From Thermofilaceae archaeon (GTDB lineage Archaea > Thermoproteota > Thermoprotei > Thermofilales > Thermofilaceae): DNA of 64,000 nt. Positions 48,384 through 58,616 of this stretch are shown here, piece by piece (within the stretch, counting starts at the first letter, position 1; every line of letters begins with the position of its first letter). The stretch is from positions 62,001-126,000 of the forward strand of contig JAVYQJ010000003.1 of the NCBI GenBank assembly GCA_038731975.1, read 5' to 3'. Under the pieces are notes generated by a model. It did no database searches, was not told where the DNA came from, and worked only from the letters and a program-made list of their open reading frames with translations. Both the position numbers and the translations under genes were made by a program.

Positions 48384-49001
48384 TAGGCCCCCAGAGAAAC
48401 TCAGGGTTGCCGGGCGCATCACGAGGGGGAGCGAGCAGCCCTCGCAACGTAATGACCTTACCCAAGTATGACTCGAGTACAGCCCGGAAAAGACGAATCT
48501 CCACCAAAGGGTTTATTGGTGTGAAGGGAGTTTCAAAAACGTAAGAAGATCTGACAGTGGAGTTCACACCCCCATTTAAACACTTCATCACAACGGCCCA
48601 TGCCCTTCTCTACTCATAGTCAAGCAGGGTCCCCGCATCCTCTGCCAGTATAGAGTGGGTAGTGCTGCAGCGATAGACGTGTTACCACAGCTCACCAACG
48701 CAAGATGCCTACGCCTAGCCAGCCCGCGGAAACAACAAACAAGAGCGAGCTTACATACGATACTGGTTAAATGCTGAACAATCGTCCCGTAGCGAAAGCC
48801 GCGCGTGTCACTACCGAGTTCACCGACGCCGCAAGGGGGAATGCCCGCGCGTAATCGAAGCTGTTGATCGCTAACGACGGGTGGTTAACGCTCGCAAGCG
48901 GTGGCGCTGAAGGCTTGAACGGGGATTGTCTAGGACGCCGCCAGTCAGCTGGAGCAACGCTTCCCTTAATAGCGGGATTTAAAGCGAAAAGGGTGAGTAT
49001 T
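48384..49001. other. Gene-poor stretch of about 620 bases
   Basis: No convincing gene. Short frames exist on both strands, such as a 27-codon plus-strand frame at 48771-48854, but none has family-like features. GGATTTAAAGC around 48977-48987 with GGGTGAG just before ATG 49002 are probably the promoter and Shine-Dalgarno site of the ATPase gene. Confidence 0.4.
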
Positions 49002-50177
49002 ATGCTAATAAAGCTTAAACTAAGGAACTTCTTGTCGTTCAAGGATGCGAGCGTCACGCTTGGCAAGCTGAACATCGTGGTGGGAGCGAACGCTAGCGGG
49101 AAAACCAACCTCTTGAAGTCCCTCGAGCTCCTCGGCAGCCTTGCCAGGCTCGGCTACCCCCATGTCGAGGGTTACGCAGCCCCTAGCGCGGGCGGAGGCT
49201 GGTACCTCAACCTCGGTGGTCTAGCCCACAACTTCGACGCGGGCGCGGGAGTCGTGGTAGGCGTTGACGCTCTGGTAGAGGGTGCGGTAGTCTCGTACAC
49301 CGTGAGGATCAGCGCTGACAGCTTCGAGGAAGAGGTGGCTAGGGGGAGGGAGATTCTGATGAAGGCCTCTTCGAAGGAGCGCAGCTTCACCTACGCCGCC
49401 CGCGACGGCTCACCCCGAACGGTAGACCGGCTCGCGGCCGCCAGCCTCGACGTGCTCTACTATGACCTCCGCGGTGACAAGAGGATCCAGCGCGTCAACG
49501 TCTACCCCTCTGCTCTGGCTCACGTGCCCGCCGACGCTCACCCAGCTCTTCGAGGCTTAGCGGAGCTCCTAAAGGGGGTTAAGGTCCTCCACCCCGATCT
49601 AGCCGCCCTCAGGTTGAGGTCCAGCGTGAGGGATCAGCCTGAAACCGGATACCGGGGAGAAGGGTTAGCCCGCCAGTTGCTCCAGCTGTGCCTCGAGAGG
49701 AGGAAGGAGTACGAGGTGATCGAGAAGACGATAAGGGGCCTCCTACCCGATCTCGACGCGATCGTGCCGCGAATCGAGGGCGAAGAAGTGGAGATCCAAA
49801 TGAGGATAAACGGCCTCCCCAGGCCCCTAACAGCGGCGGGCATCCCGGACGGCGCGCTCCGCCTCACATGCTTCACCGCAGCGCTCCAATCCGGCAGTAC
49901 GCTCGTAGCCTTCGAAGCGCCCGAGTGCTTCCTGCACCCCAGGCAGCTCGAGCTGCTCATCGCCCTAGCGAAGCTCGCGGAGCCCCAGATCATCTTCACC
50001 ACCTACTCGCCCCAGCTTCTCGACTTCTTCCGACCCGAGGAGGTGGTGGTCGTATCAAGGGTGGACGCTGCGTCGAAAGCTGAGAGGCTCGTCGAGTCGG
50101 AGAAGTACAAGATCGTTAGAGAGTTCCTTGAAGCAGGGGGAAGCCTCAGCGAAGCCTGGCTCACAGGCCTCTTCTAG
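49002..50177 (+). CDS. RecF/SMC-like AAA ATPase (AAA_21 type)
   Basis: A 391-residue ATPase. The N-terminus LIKLKLRNFLSFKDASVTLG leads into Walker A VVGANASGKTNLLKSLELLG near residues 25-44. Walker B is LVAFEAPECFLHPRQLELL near residues 300-318, followed by IIFTTYSPQLLDFF. No TOPRIM or other nuclease domain follows, so it is a lone ATPase unlike OLD nucleases. The open frame extends 46 codons upstream, but GGGTGAG before ATG 49002 and the family N-terminus fix the start. Similar proteins occur in defence or DNA-repair loci; its role here is unknown. Confidence 0.88.
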   Translation: MLIKLKLRNFLSFKDASVTLGKLNIVVGANASGKTNLLKSLELLGSLARLGYPHVEGYAAPSAGGGWYLNLGGLAHNFDAGAGVVVGVDALVEGAVVSYTVRISADSFEEEVARGREILMKASSKERSFTYAARDGSPRTVDRLAAASLDVLYYDLRGDKRIQRVNVYPSALAHVPADAHPALRGLAELLKGVKVLHPDLAALRLRSSVRDQPETGYRGEGLARQLLQLCLERRKEYEVIEKTIRGLLPDLDAIVPRIEGEEVEIQMRINGLPRPLTAAGIPDGALRLTCFTAALQSGSTLVAFEAPECFLHPRQLELLIALAKLAEPQIIFTTYSPQLLDFFRPEEVVVVSRVDAASKAERLVESEKYKIVREFLEAGGSLSEAWLTGLF

Positions 50178-50411: not shown

Positions 50412-51740
50412 ATGGGCTTGAAGGAAGAGCTGCTCCACCTCTTGAAAACCGATGAGGAGTTCCGCTATGCGGTAGCAGGTCTACTCGGTTACGACGAAAT
50501 TCTGAAGCGCGTGAGAAGACAGGAGAAGCAGATTGCAAAGCTCCGCAGAGAGATGTACAAGAGCCTCGCACGCCTCAGCGAAGCCGTAGAAAAGCTAGCT
50601 GAAATCGCGACAAAGCACACGGAAGAAATCACTCGATTGAGAGCTGAAATGCTGGAGGGTTTCAAGAGGCATGACGAGGAGATCGCCCAGTTGAGGAGAG
50701 AGATGTTAGAGGGTTTCAAGAGGCACGACGAGCTGCTCGCCAAGCACACGGAGGAAATCGCTCAATTGAGGAGAGAGATGTTAGAGGGCTTTAGGCGTCA
50801 TGATGAGCTGCTCGCTAAGCATAGCGAGGAGATCGCTCAGCTGAGGAGAGAGATGATCGAGGGTTTCAAGAGGCATGATGAGTTGCTCGCTAAGCATAGC
50901 GAGGAGATTACTCGATTGAGAGCTGAAATGATCGAGGGTTTCAAGAGGCACGATGAGGAGATCGCTCAACTGCGGAAGGAGATGCTGGAGGGTTTTAAGC
51001 GTCATGATGAGCTGCTCGCTAAGCATGACGAGGAGATCGCCCAGTTGAGGAGAGAGATGTTAGAGGGTTTCAAGAGGCACGACGAGCTGCTCGCCAAGCA
51101 CACGGAGGAAATCGCTCAATTGAGGAGAGAGATGTTAGAGGGCTTTAGGCGTCATGACGAGGAGATATCTCAGCTGCGGAAGGAGATGCTGGAGGGTTTT
51201 AAGAGGCATGACGAGGAGATCGCCCAGTTGAGGAGAGAGATGATTGAGGGTTTCAAGAGGCACGACGAGCTCTACGCTAAGCTAGCCGAAGCTGTTGCGA
51301 AGCTGGGAGAGGAAGTCGCCCGGCTTGACAAGCGCATCACGGGGCTCCACTCAGCTCTACTGGCGGGCCTCGGAGAGGTAAGCAAGTTCGCTGGGTTAAC
51401 GTTTGAGGAGCTCGTGAGAAAGCTCCTAACAGCGCAGCTGAGGGGGACCGGAACGATACCCCCCGACGCGGAGCTGAGGGCTGCGAGCATCGACGGTGAG
51501 CAGGTCGACATCTTCCTCGAAGACCCCCTCGTCGTCGGTGAAGTCACAAGCTACGCGGAGACGGCTGAAGAGGCGAGCAAGCTCCTCAGGAAAGCTGAAG
51601 CAGCGAGGAGGAAGTTCGGCAGAGAACCGCTGAAGTTCCTCGTCATCCTCACCGCCAGAAGAGAGGCTGCCAGAGAACTGGAGAGGATAGCCAGAGAGAA
51701 CAACATCGAGCTAACAATCGGGAAGATAGTCGAAGACTAG
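50412..51740 (+). CDS. Long modular coiled-coil protein with degenerate PD-(D/E)XK-like C-terminal domain
   Basis: A 442-residue protein. Residues 1-40 (MGLKEELLHLLKTDEEFRY, then VAGLLGYDEIL) form a helical head shared with the protein at 54416-55189. Residues 71-292 are ten near-identical modules of 18 or 25 residues, each reading EEIxxLRxEMxEGFxRHD with an optional ELLAKHx. The C-terminal 130 residues resemble DUF3782-type nuclease folds: DGEQVDIFLEDPLVVGEVTS has the acidic residues but EVT in place of ExK, so activity is doubtful. Start is ATG 50412; an in-frame TTG is two codons earlier. Confidence 0.85.
   Translation: MGLKEELLHLLKTDEEFRYAVAGLLGYDEILKRVRRQEKQIAKLRREMYKSLARLSEAVEKLAEIATKHTEEITRLRAEMLEGFKRHDEEIAQLRREMLEGFKRHDELLAKHTEEIAQLRREMLEGFRRHDELLAKHSEEIAQLRREMIEGFKRHDELLAKHSEEITRLRAEMIEGFKRHDEEIAQLRKEMLEGFKRHDELLAKHDEEIAQLRREMLEGFKRHDELLAKHTEEIAQLRREMLEGFRRHDEEISQLRKEMLEGFKRHDEEIAQLRREMIEGFKRHDELYAKLAEAVAKLGEEVARLDKRITGLHSALLAGLGEVSKFAGLTFEELVRKLLTAQLRGTGTIPPDAELRAASIDGEQVDIFLEDPLVVGEVTSYAETAEEASKLLRKAEAARRKFGREPLKFLVILTARREAARELERIARENNIELTIGKIVED
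50622..51287 (+). repeat. In-gene tandem repeat: ten 54- or 75-base modules
   Basis: The modules encode 18, 25, 25, 25, 18, 25, 25, 18, 18 and 25 residues, in that order. They differ by only a few bases, mostly third positions. The 25-residue form is the 18-residue form plus one heptad, so any gain or loss of modules keeps both the reading frame and the coiled-coil register. Recent duplication or recombination is likely. Confidence 0.9.
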
Positions 51741-51891: not shown

Positions 51892-53268
51892 TTGATAAGG
51901 ACGGCCCGGGTTAGCACTTCGGTGGGAGTCTTGGGTATAATCGCTGAAGCTAGGAGCTGTAGTAGCGTGGACGAGCTGGTCAGCATCGCAAGAGCTGAGG
52001 GGGTGGACTACGAAGCCCTCAGGAAGAGGGTGAGCCAGGGCAAAGTGATCGTGCTGAGGAATCTCAGAAGGCCCAGAGCGAGACTAGTGGCAATCGGGGA
52101 GGGGCTGAGGACAAAGGTGAACGTGAACGTTGGGACGAGCGGTACCGTGGTCAACGTTGAACTGGAGGTAGAGAAGGTCAAGACGGCGGTGAAGCTTGGA
52201 ACGGACACGCTGATGGACCTGAGTACGGGCGGCAACCTGGACGAGATCCGAGCGAAGCTGATGGAAGCCTCTGAGGGCGTGCCCTTCGGCACGGTACCCA
52301 CATACCAAGCCTGGATCGAGGGCGTCAAGAAGTACGGGGGTCCCGGCATGCCGTCCGACTGGTTCATAGCGGTGGTGGAGAAGCACCTGAGGGACGGGGT
52401 GGACTTCATGACCATACACGCGGGGATCACGCTGGACCTGGCCAGGAGGTCCCTGAGGAGCCGTAGGATCGCGCCGATAGTCAGCAGGGGTGGCAGCATG
52501 CTGGCCGTCTGGATGGTGGAGAACGAGGAGGAGAACCCGTACTTAAAGCACTGGGACTACCTGATAGAGCTGTTCAGGGAGTACGATGCTGTGATAAGCC
52601 TGGGCGACGCTCTGAGGCCCGGCGCAGTAGCCGACGCCCACGACGAGCTGCAGCTCGGGGAGCTAGTGAACAACTCCAGGCTGGCTAGGGACGCGGTGAG
52701 GAAGGGGGTTCAAGTGATGATCGAGGGGCCGGGGCACATGACCTTGGACAAGGTAGCCGCGGACGTGAGGCTGGAAAAGGCCCTCAGCGGAGGGGTGCCC
52801 TACTACGTGCTCGGCCCGCTGGTGACGGACGTAGCTGTCGGGTACGACCACATCGCCTCAGCGATCGGGGCCGCCATAGCCGCGGCGGCCGGCGCGGACC
52901 TCATCTGCTACGTCACCCCCTCGGAGCACTTGGGGCTACCCGGCGTGGAGCAGGTGAAGGAGGGCTTGATCGCGGCTAAGATAGCCGCTCACGCAGGGGA
53001 CCTGGTTAAGCTGGGTAGGAGGGCAGCCTACGAGGACGTCGAAATGAGCATCAGGAGGGCGGCCCTCGACTGGGACTACCAGGTGCTGAAGTCCTACGAC
53101 CCGGAGAGAGCGGCGAAGCTGAAGGCCCAGTTCCAGCACGACTTGAGCTCGTGCACCATGTGCGGCCAGTACTGCGTGTTCCTCCTCCTATCGAAGTACA
53201 CGAGCGGCAGGAGGCTGGATAGGGACGAGCTGCTGGAGAGGTTCGGAGAGGGCTGCAGCCTGGTGTAG
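51892..53268 (+). CDS. thiC: Phosphomethylpyrimidine synthase (ThiC)
   Basis: A 458-residue radical SAM enzyme that turns aminoimidazole ribonucleotide into the pyrimidine of thiamine. Family motifs: [11 protein letters not shown], the [13 protein letters not shown] and GTVPTYQAW segments, [65 protein letters not shown] and the C-terminal iron-sulfur CTMCGQYC. Start is TTG 51892, next to a TATA-like TATTAATTG; no thiamine riboswitch was recognised in the 150 bases upstream. A gene of unknown function follows after four bases. Confidence 0.95.
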
Positions 53269-54415: not shown

Positions 54416-55189
54416 ATGGCTCTGGTCGACCTTAAGAGCGAGCTCCTCCGCCTCCTAAAGGAGGACGAGGAGTTCCGGTACACGGTGGCAGGCCTACTCG
54501 GCCTCAAAGAAATCCTCAACGAGCTCCGGAAGCTGCGCAAGGACTTCCTAACCTTCGTGAAGGAGCAGGAGAAGCGTTGGGAGGAGAATAACAGGAGGTG
54601 GGAGGAGAGCAACAGGAGGTTCCTGTCGCTGGAGGGCGAACTCGTAAAGCTCCGGGAGGACTTCCTCGCGTTCGTAAGGGAGCAGGAGAAGCGCTGGGAG
54701 GAGACCAACAGGAGGTTTTTGTCGCTGGAGACTGAGCTTGCGAAGCTGCGGGAGGACTTCCTAACCTTCGTGAAGGAGCAGGAGAAGCGTTGGGAGGAGA
54801 ATAACAGGAGGTGGGAGGAGAGCAACAGGAGGTCCTCCCGCATCGAGATGGAGCTGGGCAGCCTATCGGAGAGCCTCTACTGCCGGTACGTCTCCGAGGA
54901 CATCGAGAAGGAGCTGGCCGCGGCTGGCGAGCGAGTCACCTCGAGGATGAGGAACGCCGACTTCGACGGCGTCGAGGTCGACCTAGCCATCATCACCGAC
55001 AGAGCCGTGTACATCGTCGAAGCGAAGACCAAGCCCACCAGAAGAGCGGTCGAAGCCCTCCTCGCGAAAGCCGAAGCAGTCCAGAAGAGGACGGGCAAGC
55101 CCGTCGTACCCATCCTCACCGGAGCCCTCATCGGCAGGGAAATCGAAGCCTACGCGAGAAGCAAGGGGGTCCGAGTATACAAGTACTAG
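54416..55189 (+). CDS. Coiled-coil protein with PD-(D/E)XK nuclease-like domain (DUF3782-type)
   Basis: A 257-residue protein. Residues 1-35 share the head of the protein at 50412-51740 (LKSELLRLLKEDEEFRYTVA). Residues 40-145 are three coiled-coil modules built on LRxDFLxFVxEQEKRWEE plus runs of NNRRWEESNRR. The C-terminal domain has D189 in VEVDLAIITDR, then E202 and K204 in VYIVEAKTK, the complete PD-(D/E)XK core, so it may cut nucleic acid. It is the active-looking relative of the longer modular protein. A TATA-like TTTATAAGA (54372-54380) lies upstream. Confidence 0.85.
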   Translation: MALVDLKSELLRLLKEDEEFRYTVAGLLGLKEILNELRKLRKDFLTFVKEQEKRWEENNRRWEESNRRFLSLEGELVKLREDFLAFVREQEKRWEETNRRFLSLETELAKLREDFLTFVKEQEKRWEENNRRWEESNRRSSRIEMELGSLSESLYCRYVSEDIEKELAAAGERVTSRMRNADFDGVEVDLAIITDRAVYIVEAKTKPTRRAVEALLAKAEAVQKRTGKPVVPILTGALIGREIEAYARSKGVRVYKY

Positions 55190-55636: not shown

Positions 55637-56065
55637 GTGGGCTCCATAGAGCATGTTGAAATCCTCAGGAGGCGCAGCCTCCTCTTCCGCGATTACGCCG
55701 CTGAAGCGCTCCAGAGAGGGCATTACGATTTGGCGGCATTCTACGCCGAGCAGGCGCTGCAGCTACGCTTGAAGTCCCTACTGCTCAGGATCCTGGGGTA
55801 CGTCCCCAGGATCCACAGCGTGAGGGAGCTCCTCGGGCTGCTTTACAGAGCGCTGAGGGAGCTGGGGAGGGAAGAGTCCGCGAGCGCCCTATCCAGGTTC
55901 TCCGAAGACCGCAGGGAGGCGCTCAGGGCGCTCGACGAAGCTTACACAGCCTCCCGCTGCCTCCCCAAGGTCTACGAGGCTGCAGACGCGGAGAAGCTCC
56001 TAGCCGCCGTGGGCGAGGCCTTCGAGCTCCCCGACAGCGTTGAGAGGGGCGTCTTCAGTGTCTGA
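55637..56065 (+). CDS. HEPN-domain protein, first of the cluster (HEPN-1)
   Basis: A 142-residue helical protein of the HEPN superfamily: IEHVEILRRRSLLFRDYAAE, AAFYAEQALQLRLKSLLLRI and the signature IHSVRELLGLLYRAL, followed by LDEAYTASRCLPKVYEAADA. HEPN proteins of such pairs are RNA-binding or RNase toxins, or partners of nucleotidyltransferases. Its stop overlaps the next MNT gene start by eight bases. It closely resembles HEPN-4 of this cluster. Start is GTG 55637. Confidence 0.85.
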   Translation: MGSIEHVEILRRRSLLFRDYAAEALQRGHYDLAAFYAEQALQLRLKSLLLRILGYVPRIHSVRELLGLLYRALRELGREESASALSRFSEDRREALRALDEAYTASRCLPKVYEAADAEKLLAAVGEAFELPDSVERGVFSV

Positions 56066-56411
56066 GGAGATCGCGGTAGCAGTTCAAACCTGGAGGCTCA
56101 GAATGCTCCTCGAGTGGCGCAAGCACCTGCCGACCCTAGCCGAAGCCGCGAAGGAGGCCTTCGGGGAAGCAGAAGTCTACATCTTCGGCTCGGCAGTCGA
56201 GGGCAGGCTCACCGCGGACAGCGACATCGACGTCCTCGTGGTCCTGGACCACGTGCCCAGGAGCGGCCTGGAGAGGGCCAAGCTCGTCGACAGGCTGTGG
56301 AAAGCCCTCGAGAAGCGCGGCATCCCACCCTGGTACCCCTTCGAAGTGCACCTCGCAACCAGAGACGAGCTGAAGCTCCTCGAGAAACCCACCCTCCTCA
56401 GAGTGCTGTGA
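56058..56411 (+). CDS. Minimal nucleotidyltransferase, MNT-1 (antitoxin-type)
   Basis: A 117-residue protein of the DNA polymerase beta-like minimal nucleotidyltransferase family. The signature GSx10DxD is GSAVEGRLTADSDIDVLVV, with IFGS before it. A later segment EVHLATRDELKL is shared with MNT-4. GTG 56058 overlaps the end of HEPN-1 and is preferred over an in-frame start at 56040. MNT proteins neutralise HEPN toxins, some by adding AMP to a tyrosine. Confidence 0.87.
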   Translation: MSEEIAVAVQTWRLRMLLEWRKHLPTLAEAAKEAFGEAEVYIFGSAVEGRLTADSDIDVLVVLDHVPRSGLERAKLVDRLWKALEKRGIPPWYPFEVHLATRDELKLLEKPTLLRVL

Positions 56412-56857
56412 CAGCGCAAACGCCGGAAGAACCGCAGGCAATTCAAACCCCGGAAAACCGCGGGCCCGAACGGGAGGCGCTGGCGAAGATCTTCCAAGCC
56501 GAGGAGAGGATCCTGGCCGCCTACCTCTTCGGATCCCGCGCCAAGGGCTACGCGACGCCCGAAAGCGACTACGACATCGCCGTCCTACTCTCGGAAACCC
56601 CGCGGGACCTCCTCGACTTCTACTTGCGCCTACTCAACAAGCTGACCGACACCCTCGGGGACAACGTAGACCTCGTCATCCTCAACGAAGCACCCCCCGA
56701 GCTCAAGTACCAGGTCGTCAAGCACGGCAAACCGATCCACGTTAGAAACGAGCGCGCGAGAGTAGCCTTCGAATCCAGAACCATACGCGAGTACCTCGAC
56801 TTCAGCAGGATCCTAAAAAGGTACGACGAATGCCTAGCGAAGCGGCTCCTACAGTAG
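56408..56857 (+). CDS. Minimal nucleotidyltransferase, MNT-2 (MntA-like)
   Basis: A 149-residue protein. After a loose N-terminal stretch, the core is ERILAAYLFGSRAKGYATPE with SDYDIAVLL next, then LRLLNKLTDTLGDNVDLVIL and a C-terminal helix ESRTIREYLDFSRILKRYD. This is MntA-like, the antitoxin of MntA-HepT pairs. GTG 56408 overlaps the MNT-1 stop by four bases (GTGA). The following gene encodes a HepT-like toxin and overlaps by 28 bases, so MNT-2/HepT-2 is a proper pair. Confidence 0.88.
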   Translation: MTAQTPEEPQAIQTPENRGPEREALAKIFQAEERILAAYLFGSRAKGYATPESDYDIAVLLSETPRDLLDFYLRLLNKLTDTLGDNVDLVILNEAPPELKYQVVKHGKPIHVRNERARVAFESRTIREYLDFSRILKRYDECLAKRLLQ

Positions 56858-57387
56858 GCGAGGCAGCGATCTCCACCGAGGCGGGACAAGCCGCCACCCG
56901 AGGCATCGCAGGGGCACCGGAAAAGCGGCCTGACGCGGAGGGCGGGTCGACCGCGGCGGAGCGAGCACCCGCGGGAAGCGTGAATAGGACGTACGTCGAG
57001 AGGCTCGCATCGGACATCGAGAGGTCCATCAGCACCATCCTCTCCTACACCTCGAAGCCGTACGGGGAGATGAGCGAGGCGGAGAGGTACGCCGTCAGGT
57101 ACAACCTCATCGTGGCGGCCGAGGCTCTAGCGGCGCTCGCCGCACACCTCGCCAGGAGGCTCTACAACGAGGAGCCCGCGACACCGGCGCACGCCCTCGC
57201 GATACTCAGGGATAGGGGTCTACTCACCGAGCCCGAGCGCGAGCACCTCGCACGCCTAACCAGGTTGCGGAACCCGCTCGCCCACGGGTACTGGGCGATA
57301 GATGACGAGAGGATCTACGCGGGCGTCAAGAGCAACTTCGAGAGCGTGAAGAACCTCTTGAAGAGGCTCCGAGAGCATGCCGTGTGA
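56830..57387 (+). CDS. HepT-like (DUF86) HEPN ribonuclease, HepT-2
   Basis: A 185-residue protein. Residues 1-50 are a low-complexity, alanine-rich leader with little predicted structure. The helical core has the HEPN RNase motif R-x4-H in RLRNPLAHGYW near residues 143-153, matching the RNxxxH of HepT toxins. It overlaps MNT-2 by 28 bases and MNT-3 by 11. An RNase or NAD-linked toxin activity is likely from the family but not shown here. The long leader is unusual; a later start cannot be excluded. Confidence 0.84.
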   Translation: MPSEAAPTVGEAAISTEAGQAATRGIAGAPEKRPDAEGGSTAAERAPAGSVNRTYVERLASDIERSISTILSYTSKPYGEMSEAERYAVRYNLIVAAEALAALAAHLARRLYNEEPATPAHALAILRDRGLLTEPEREHLARLTRLRNPLAHGYWAIDDERIYAGVKSNFESVKNLLKRLREHAV

Positions 57388-57814
57388 CCGCTACAGGTAC
57401 TACAGGCTGAGCCCCGAGGAGAGGAGAACCCTCAAGGAGGCCATCAGGAGCACCCTCGAGGGGAGGGGCGTCGAGCTAGCCATAATCTTCGGCAGCTTCA
57501 TCGAGCTGGAATCCTTCAGGGACGTGGACGTAGCCGTCTACGCGAGGGGCGGCCTCGACCTCAACGACGTGATCAAGCTGGCCGCGGAGCTGGAGGAGCG
57601 CACCCGCACCCCGGTAGACGTAGTCCCGCTGGAGAAAGCCCCACCCAGGTTCAGGCACCACATACTGACCAAAGGCGAAGTCCTGCTGGAGAAGCAGCCC
57701 GGCCTCTACGAAGCCCTACTCATGCTCACGCTGGACGAGCTCGCAACCCTCGAAGCCGGCGACCCGCACCCCCAGCCCACCAGCAGCCCCCAAGCAGAGC
57801 AGCGAAACCCCTGA
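57377..57814 (+). CDS. Minimal nucleotidyltransferase, MNT-3
   Basis: A 145-residue protein. The core is VELAIIFGSFIELESFRDVD followed by VAVYARGG, a shortened GS...DVD motif, then ELEERTRTPVDVVPLEKAPP and FRHHILTKGEVLLEK. Its C-terminal 30 residues are proline- and serine-rich. It overlaps HepT-2 by 11 bases. It has no HEPN partner of its own; either HepT-2 or the following HEPN-4 could serve. Confidence 0.83.
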   Translation: MPCDRYRYYRLSPEERRTLKEAIRSTLEGRGVELAIIFGSFIELESFRDVDVAVYARGGLDLNDVIKLAAELEERTRTPVDVVPLEKAPPRFRHHILTKGEVLLEKQPGLYEALLMLTLDELATLEAGDPHPQPTSSPQAEQRNP

Positions 57815-57822
57815 AGCCCCCC

Positions 57823-58212
57823 ATGTCCATCGAGGAGGTCGAGATCCCCCGGAGGAGGGCCCTAACCTTCCTCAACCACGCCAGGGAAGCCGTCGAGCGC
57901 GGGGAGTTCGACTTCGCCCGCCTCTCGAGCGAGCAGGCCGCCCAGCTCTCCGTGATGCTGGAGCTGGCGGGCGAGACCCCCAGGCCGCACCGGGCGAGGG
58001 AGCTGCTCCACCTCCCGAGCAGGCTCGCACCCGAAGCGGAGGAGCCGGTAACCGAGTTCGTCAGGAGGAACAGGGAGGCCCCGAGGGCCCTCGACGACGC
58101 CTACACAGCCTCCAAGCTCCCCTCCACCTACACGCGCGAGGAGGCGCTCGTCAAGCTGGCCGAGAGCCTGATCGAGCTCGTGAGCGAGGTCCTGGAGAGG
58201 TGCAAGCGCTAG
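57823..58212 (+). CDS. HEPN-domain protein, HEPN-4
   Basis: A 129-residue relative of HEPN-1: IEEVEIPRRRALTFLNHARE, FARLSSEQAAQLSVMLELAG, HRARELLHLPSRL and LDDAYTASKLPSTYTREEAL. The DNA is extremely G+C-rich. It overlaps MNT-4 by 13 bases. The pair HEPN-4/MNT-4 is a second copy of HEPN-1/MNT-1, so duplication within the cluster is likely. The tyrosine/arginine pattern around the HEPN signature is weaker than in HEPN-1. Confidence 0.8.
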   Translation: MSIEEVEIPRRRALTFLNHAREAVERGEFDFARLSSEQAAQLSVMLELAGETPRPHRARELLHLPSRLAPEAEEPVTEFVRRNREAPRALDDAYTASKLPSTYTREEALVKLAESLIELVSEVLERCKR

Positions 58213-58616
58213 AGAGGTACTACAGGGCCAGGTACGAGAGGTTCAAGAGCCTCCTCAAGTGGAGGGAGCAGCTGCCCGAGCTCCTCGAAGCCGTCAAGAG
58301 CGTCCTACCCGACGCGGAGGTGTACATCTTCGGCAGCGCCCTCAGAGGCGAGCTCACCGCCAACAGCGACGTAGACGTGCTAGTCGTCACCGACAAAGCC
58401 GCAGGCCCCCAACGCCACCAGCTCGCCGCAGCCATAGAGGAGAAGCTGAAAACCCCCCTCATCTTCGAAATACACCTGGCGACGAGGGAGAAGCTCGACT
58501 GGTACAAGAGGCACGCGAAAGAGCTAATCCCGGCCCAGCAGCTCGCAACCAGCAGCAAAGCCAGCCAAACCCCAGAAGAGGCGCGAGCTGCCACCGAAAT
58601 CGGCCGCGAAGCCTGA
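58200..58616 (+). CDS. Minimal nucleotidyltransferase, MNT-4
   Basis: A 138-residue protein close to MNT-1: DAEVYIFGSALRGELTANSD followed by VDVLVV, and IFEIHLATREKLDWYKRHAK. The nucleotidyltransferase GSx10DxD is intact. The C-terminal 30 residues are low complexity (SSKASQTPEEARAATEI). It overlaps HEPN-4 by 13 bases and closes the seven-gene cluster. Confidence 0.85.
   Translation: MQALERYYRARYERFKSLLKWREQLPELLEAVKSVLPDAEVYIFGSALRGELTANSDVDVLVVTDKAAGPQRHQLAAAIEEKLKTPLIFEIHLATREKLDWYKRHAKELIPAQQLATSSKASQTPEEARAATEIGREA

Follow-up and report, generated by a model that had tools for sequence, protein, structure and literature searches.

A conserved length has been described for many coiled-coil spacers. 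The closest described systems to the protein studied here are the archaeal coiled-coil PD-(D/E)XK proteins with DUF3782 (PF12644) and PDDEXK_10 (PF07788, formerly DUF1626), Thermofilum included; in DUF1626 the Lys of motif III is often replaced by Thr and basic residues are found in the next helix (accessible text of PMC1913061). The alpha/beta coiled coils of the DUF3782 family, such as Tcar0761, have nonad repeats with an ATK-type beta-layer motif (accessible part of PMC4786415). Rec-GGDEF and related signalling linkers also change in discrete, register-keeping length steps between two domains, but these domains are unrelated to ours and the steps are of 7 only, with neither 11-residue units nor tandem modules reported in the available portion of PMC8041772. 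The DUF16/RepMP1 proteins of Mycoplasma pneumoniae are likewise a multigene coiled-coil family, in which the number of a 21-bp (heptad) repeat varies by strain, although they belong to another organism and family and, as presented in the accessible text, have heptads only and no nuclease domain (PMC3472980). Coiled-coil length is also limited to certain classes in SMC arms, whereas the steps there are of about 100 residues, ATPase-linked and without short tandem modules (available portion of PMC5344682).

The window analysed here, a stretch of 64,000 nucleotides, comes from a metagenome-assembled genome (MAG) of 1.85 Mb in 87 contigs, assigned to Thermofilaceae. It holds an ORF at 50412..51740 on the + strand, with an ATG start and 442 aa, in the order head, rod and PD-(D/E)XK-fold C-domain (type A). 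The protein shares with the DUF3782/PDDEXK_10 proteins the head-rod-nuclease layout, the N-terminal coiled coil and the Thr in motif III with basic residues in the helix after it, but its C-domain is matched by neither model, and the modules of 18 and 25 residues and the step rule given below are not in the accessible text of PMC1913061. With the Tcar0761-type stalks it has in common the broad stalk family, a non-heptad periodicity and tandem stalk repeats; unlike what is available of PMC4786415, no repeat offset here calls for 9. A beta-layer stalk was rejected, as [aliphatic]-A-T-K-[polar]-[DE] occurs in 0 of 184 family proteins and the window protein has IATKHT without the final acid. The features are as follows.

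50412..50552, + strand: conserved head, aa 1-47 (alignment A3), common to all C-domain types
50541..50567, + strand: degenerate GF-type module LRREMYKSL, aa 44-52, outside the ten (post hoc)
50622..50675, + strand: module 1, 18 aa
50676..50750, + strand: module 2, 25 aa
50751..50825, + strand: module 3, 25 aa
50826..50900, + strand: module 4, 25 aa
50901..50954, + strand: module 5, 18 aa
50955..51029, + strand: module 6, 25 aa
51030..51104, + strand: module 7, 25 aa
51105..51158, + strand: module 8, 18 aa
51159..51212, + strand: module 9, 18 aa
51213..51287, + strand: module 10, 25 aa, final seven residues diverged
50669..50803, + strand: 135-bp exact repeat, copy 1
51023..51157, + strand: copy 2 of the 135-bp exact repeat, 354 bp (118 aa) on from copy 1
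51279..51737, + strand: rod end and type-A PD-(D/E)XK-fold domain, aa 290-442 (alignment A4; model pLDDT 90.8, NucS/EndoMS-like fold)
51507..51593, + strand: active-site region, with D366 (motif II), E377-x-T379 (motif III) and K390 and K394 in the next helix
54416..55189, + strand: paralogue, 257 aa, with the same head, a different repeat rod and a type-C PD-(D/E)XK domain with D...E-x-K

Ten anchors of the form [ED]EIxxLRxEM were found at aa 71, 89, 114, 139, 164, 182, 207, 232, 250 and 268, that is, at spacings of 18, 25, 25, 25, 18, 25, 25, 18 and 18 residues, the tenth module having 25. TRF recovered the repeat arrays independently, and the ten modules of 18 or 25 residues first proposed for 50412-51740 stand in both number and position. 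Such an array is beyond chance, as all ten modules agree at 13 of the 18 shared columns. Both module lengths equal 4 modulo 7, and each module consists of heptads plus one four-residue stutter (a hendecad), not of pure heptads; the hydrophobic periodicity of the rod peaks at 3.58 and not at 3.5 (270 residues, without proline). The original prediction held that a difference of one heptad keeps the register. This explains 18 against 25, but the register also needs the hendecads of 11 residues.

In the AlphaFold2 model of the C-domain the predicted order past the rod end is helix, three strands, helix, strand, helix and strand. The top PDB match of this model is the archaeal repair endonuclease NucS/EndoMS (Foldseek E 1.1e-3, TM 0.44; VIA Z 11.5, rmsd 2.8 over 99 residues), followed by Card1, Can2 and Cdn1 (Z 8-9), and the C-domain is predicted to have the PD-(D/E)XK core fold. 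UPRT-like structures also appeared in the fold searches, ranked lower, and were taken as a common arrangement. The full-length model consists of one helix, 15-327, and the domain, with confidence dropping under 50 around the centre of the rod; a straight helix over 15-327 measures about 47 nm, at 0.15 nm per residue. In the type-A alignment motif III is E-x-T in all 30 rows, T379 of the window protein replacing Lys, and lysines 390 and 394 are invariant. Motif II has D in 12 rows, as does the window protein (D366), and N in the other 18. Because of these 18 rows catalysis by the type-A branch seems doubtful from the alignment, and the same would apply to a nuclease activity of the 442-aa protein's branch.

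A match to the 442-aa protein was detected in 92 of 151 related genomes. The head profile A3 was found in 14 of 17 genomes of the taxonomic family, with up to 12 copies of A3-head proteins per genome, and at E<=1e-8 in 60 of 81 genomes of the class and 158 of 398 genomes drawn from the phylum. The window head is 49-64% identical to the other heads in the A3 alignment, and relatives bearing this head match PF12644 and PF07788. Judged by sequence, the 442-aa protein is a member, in the broad sense, of the known archaeal DUF3782/PDDEXK_10 coiled-coil nuclease family. The common head and rod carry C-domains of at least three types; these are A (the window protein), B (DUF3782 with PDDEXK_10) and C (the protein at 54416). 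The type-A C-domain matches no model in Pfam or NCBIfam, and both it and the 442-aa protein stay below the curated cut-offs of PF12644 and PF07788. Profile comparison joined A with B (probability 92%, E 8e-7), A with C (hhalign probability 95%, E 3e-8, 24% identity) and B with C (probability 95%), the E values being those for a single pair. Hence the head and C-terminal fold do match those of the protein at 54416, as had been noticed at the outset, the heads within A3 and the C-domains at profile level.

The closest type-A relative in the genome_contigs set, which is also the closest relative of the window protein and lies outside its own family, is 52% identical and belongs to a Bathyarchaeota MAG (G102; L005/L035) that the kinship table places in a different class. 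As this closest relative lies in another class, the sequences suggest that the type-A gene has likely moved by horizontal transfer. The genomes searched gave no close orthologue of the window gene, viral_contigs gave no viral carriage with the type-A and type-B alignments, and the plasmids gave no carriage of the window C-domain. Several other matches were weighed. RmuC (PF02646) is matched weakly and by the rod alone, with E 0.014 and 14.9 bits where the cut-off is 26, Pfam matches such as Atg11_middle were taken as coiled-coil cross-matches, and four weak sequence matches to solved structures, the best with E 4e-6 over 25 residues of chain E8, were taken as chance.

We propose that the gene encodes a coiled-coil spacer protein. 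It would begin with a short helical head, which is conserved, continue as a single long rod helix and end in a nuclease-like domain of PD-(D/E)XK fold, the rod being made up of heptads (7) and hendecads (11) in modules of 18 (7+11) and 25 (7+7+11). Recombination between modules would gain or lose whole units. The net changes seen are almost all of the form 7a+11b, and our proposal is that this is because such changes keep the hydrophobic seam running without a break from head to nuclease. The family would thus sample many head-to-nuclease distances at fixed register. Starting from the architecture, the modules, the stepped indels and the phase constancy of the DUF3782-type branch, which the sequence comparisons establish, we consider it likely that the rod is a spacer whose length recombination resets in register-safe steps. 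The protein may be a parallel oligomer, the rod would serve as a spacer or ruler, and selection, beyond repeat-guided mutation alone, may cause the steps.

We compared the length of the rod among near relatives. Two Thermofilum genomes (G012 and G015) share 12 orthologue pairs with 91-99.7% DNA identity, one G015 copy being cut by a contig end; the rods are equal in five pairs and differ in the others by 7, 7, 21, 21, 25, 28 and 42 residues. Beside these rod changes, two family genes of G012 (L106 and L109) have a lost or altered C-domain where the G015 orthologues are intact, which is recent decay. From 184 distinct family proteins we further took 32 independent pairs, some of them paralogues within one genome, with C-domains at least 80% identical and each protein used once. 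The rod differs in 24 of the 32, and with the Thermofilum orthologues this bears out the expectation that rod length is what varies in the family, in frame and by whole coiled-coil units.

These pairs contain 37 indels, of which 34 are in the rod and none in the head; the other three (17, 2 and 1 residues) lie within the C-domain or behind it. Modulo 7, the rod indels fall in class 0 (21), class 4 (12) and class 5 (1). Up to 35 residues, 30 of 31 rod indels equal 7a+11b, the exception being 4; the corresponding probability under a uniform null is 2.3e-13, a null that ignores that repeats favour unit-sized indels. Seventeen pairs have a single gap, in the rod, and all 17 differences are 7a+11b; as there is only one gap, the length difference does not depend on where the gap is placed. 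Six of the 17 align with several gaps in DNA, and therefore the rod steps are to be read as net differences. For the remaining 11 pairs, clean with one gap, the insert and its best nearby copy share 52-90% DNA identity. Internal repeats were found in 145 of the 184 proteins, and the nearest-repeat offsets up to 60 (at least three supporting windows) are all 7a+11b except 4 and 59, each in one protein; both occur in L224, which has a masked run of X. Two paralogues of one genome (L213 and L215 of G166) have heads and C-domains 99% identical and rods that differ in make-up and by 11 residues, and from their sequences they look as if the rod had been exchanged.

For the type-B proteins d was measured as the distance between the FR motif of the head and the motif ALGARWG. 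It spans 51-250 residues (49 proteins, one extra filter), or 44-250 with the held-out set. In 56 type-B proteins the raw d modulo 7 is scattered (11, 2, 16, 6, 4, 10 and 7), and after subtraction of 4 per GF module 44 are in class 5, ten in class 2 and two in class 6. The de-duplicated set gave 29, 5 and 1 of 35 in the same classes. Other corrections per module (0, 1, 2, 3, 5 and 6) never placed more than 16 of the 56 in one class, and 0 of 20000 permutations reached 44. One uncounted hendecad would give class 2. A further 40 genes, picked from listed search matches and not by random draw, contained twelve type-B proteins by the same patterns (one row per ORF, 3' stop not required); of these, 11 were in class 5 as predicted beforehand and one in class 2 (permutation 1/20000; shortest d 44), and among the held-out proteins unrelated to the first set the count was 5 of 6. 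As far as these sequences go, the head-to-nuclease phase is constant in the DUF3782-type branch.

It should be noted that within the type-A set of 23 proteins (12 de-duplicated) the 442-aa window protein is itself an outlier under the strict phase rule, in class 3, and moves to class 2 only if two degenerate modules are counted post hoc. Six type-A proteins in class 6 have a C-proximal element that the strict pattern missed, also a post hoc observation, and two others (L240 and L014) stay outside the rule.

The age of the module copies was judged from their DNA. Over the first 54 bases the ten modules are 67-100% identical in pairs, and of 706 same-residue codon pairs 262 (37.1%) show a silent difference, where 40.3% would be expected for codons drawn independently from six nearby coding-sequence stretches. 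Most of the copies are thus old and nearly saturated at silent sites. Few silent differences were seen between modules 2 and 7 (0/18), 2 and 10 (0/17) and 3 and 8 (1/18). Module pairs 2-3 and 7-8 sit within the exact repeat, where 50669-50803 equals 51023-51157 over 135 bp, one recently duplicated block; in addition, 42 bp at 50664-50705 are repeated at 51201-51242. The 135-bp repeat is the longest in the rods of the 184 family genes (median 15.5 bp; at least 50 bp in 19 of 184). The original prediction, that the copies are so alike that recent recombination is likely, thus applies to this one block and not to most modules. We also took 24 genes that each have three or more GF-type modules and left out 7 as orthologues; of the 80 modules in the 17 unrelated genes that remained, 62.5% have their closest match by DNA within their own gene, against 5.2% with shuffled labels. 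The modules are therefore renewed within genes, but over a longer time than had been assumed.

Several of these observations would also fit neutral repeat dynamics, in which slippage or unequal crossing-over gives unit-sized indels while register and length are unselected. All 41 exact rod repeats of at least 30 bp have an offset divisible by 3, the window gene has its exact 135-bp block, the nearest module is mostly intragenic and the amount of rod length change between close relatives looks unconstrained; repeat-guided mutation alone would likewise yield unit-sized steps. However, the inserted DNA of the 11 clean pairs is too dissimilar to its best nearby copy to be a fresh slippage product, and because of this fresh slippage is unlikely as the sole cause. 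The phase is, further, kept over mixed unit types and 44-250 residues despite changed unit composition. We regard the neutral explanation as somewhat unlikely.

An active ruler nuclease, with a rod length that sets the distance from a head-bound partner to the cut site and with particular lengths selected, is distinctly unlikely. The conserved head on every C-domain type, the up to 12 copies per genome and the D...E-x-K intact in 10 of 10 type-C rows speak for it, but no particular length is held when 24 of 32 close pairs differ, and type A has no motif III Lys in any of its 30 rows and mostly N in motif II. Misassembly of near-identical modules is highly improbable even for a MAG contig that carries the longest repeat of 184 family genes, as the frame is open throughout, the copies have many silent changes and distinct neighbours, and modules of this type and spacing are present in many further genomes, single-contig ones included.

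The spacer rod with register-safe length steps can be extended, tentatively and with the whole being unlikely, to an evolvable two-step ruler. Stalked nuclease-like proteins, a family widespread in archaea, would then have a fixed head-nuclease phase and a distance that recombination continually resets in steps of 7 and 11 residues, the paralogues of one genome having one docking head and different reach. The family, its nuclease-like domain, the motif III change and non-heptad stalks are already published (accessible text of PMC1913061 and PMC4786415), and the 7/11 two-step rule with the head-to-nuclease phase seems to be the new part. We did not meet such a rule for the DUF3782-type family in the titles and abstracts searched, though it may still be published. 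In the DUF3782-type branch nature supplies a large set of rods with conserved ends, the head and nuclease anchors lying 44 to 250 residues apart. The rod lengths change between close species, and the coiled-coil length changes that are tolerated become directly testable; the rule itself is simple, 7a+11b with stutters counted, and held on proteins outside the first set.

The paralogue at 54416 has a rod with a 96-bp repeat in 2.2 copies (TRF). Its type-C C-domain was found in 13 of the 151 genomes searched, and D, E and K of motifs II-III are kept in all 10 type-C rows, so that the two C-domain branches of the window differ, D...E-x-K at 54416 against E-x-T in the 442-aa protein. Directly downstream of this paralogue, and not adjoining the 442-aa gene, lies a HEPN/MNT array at 55637-58616 (HEPN 55637, NTP_transf_2 56040, HepT-like 56830, Polbeta 57377, HEPN 57823 and NTP_transf_2 58200). 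A survey of HEPN proteins describes archaeal HEPN genes as sharing operons with MNT and REase (DUF1626) genes (available portion of PMC3710099).

The 442-aa gene itself is followed directly by a ThiC gene at 51892-53268 (radical SAM, E 4.5e-165). Just upstream is an AAA_21 ATPase at 48996-50177 (E 6e-18), which scores 90 bits against antiphage_MADS3, with a curated cut-off of 420, and is absent from the 37 related type-A loci by tblastn. A conserved operon was rejected, as of nine window neighbours only one HEPN and one MNT gene were matched in these 37 loci, both at one locus (L050). Smaller groups of common ORFs are present in the flanks of type-A loci.
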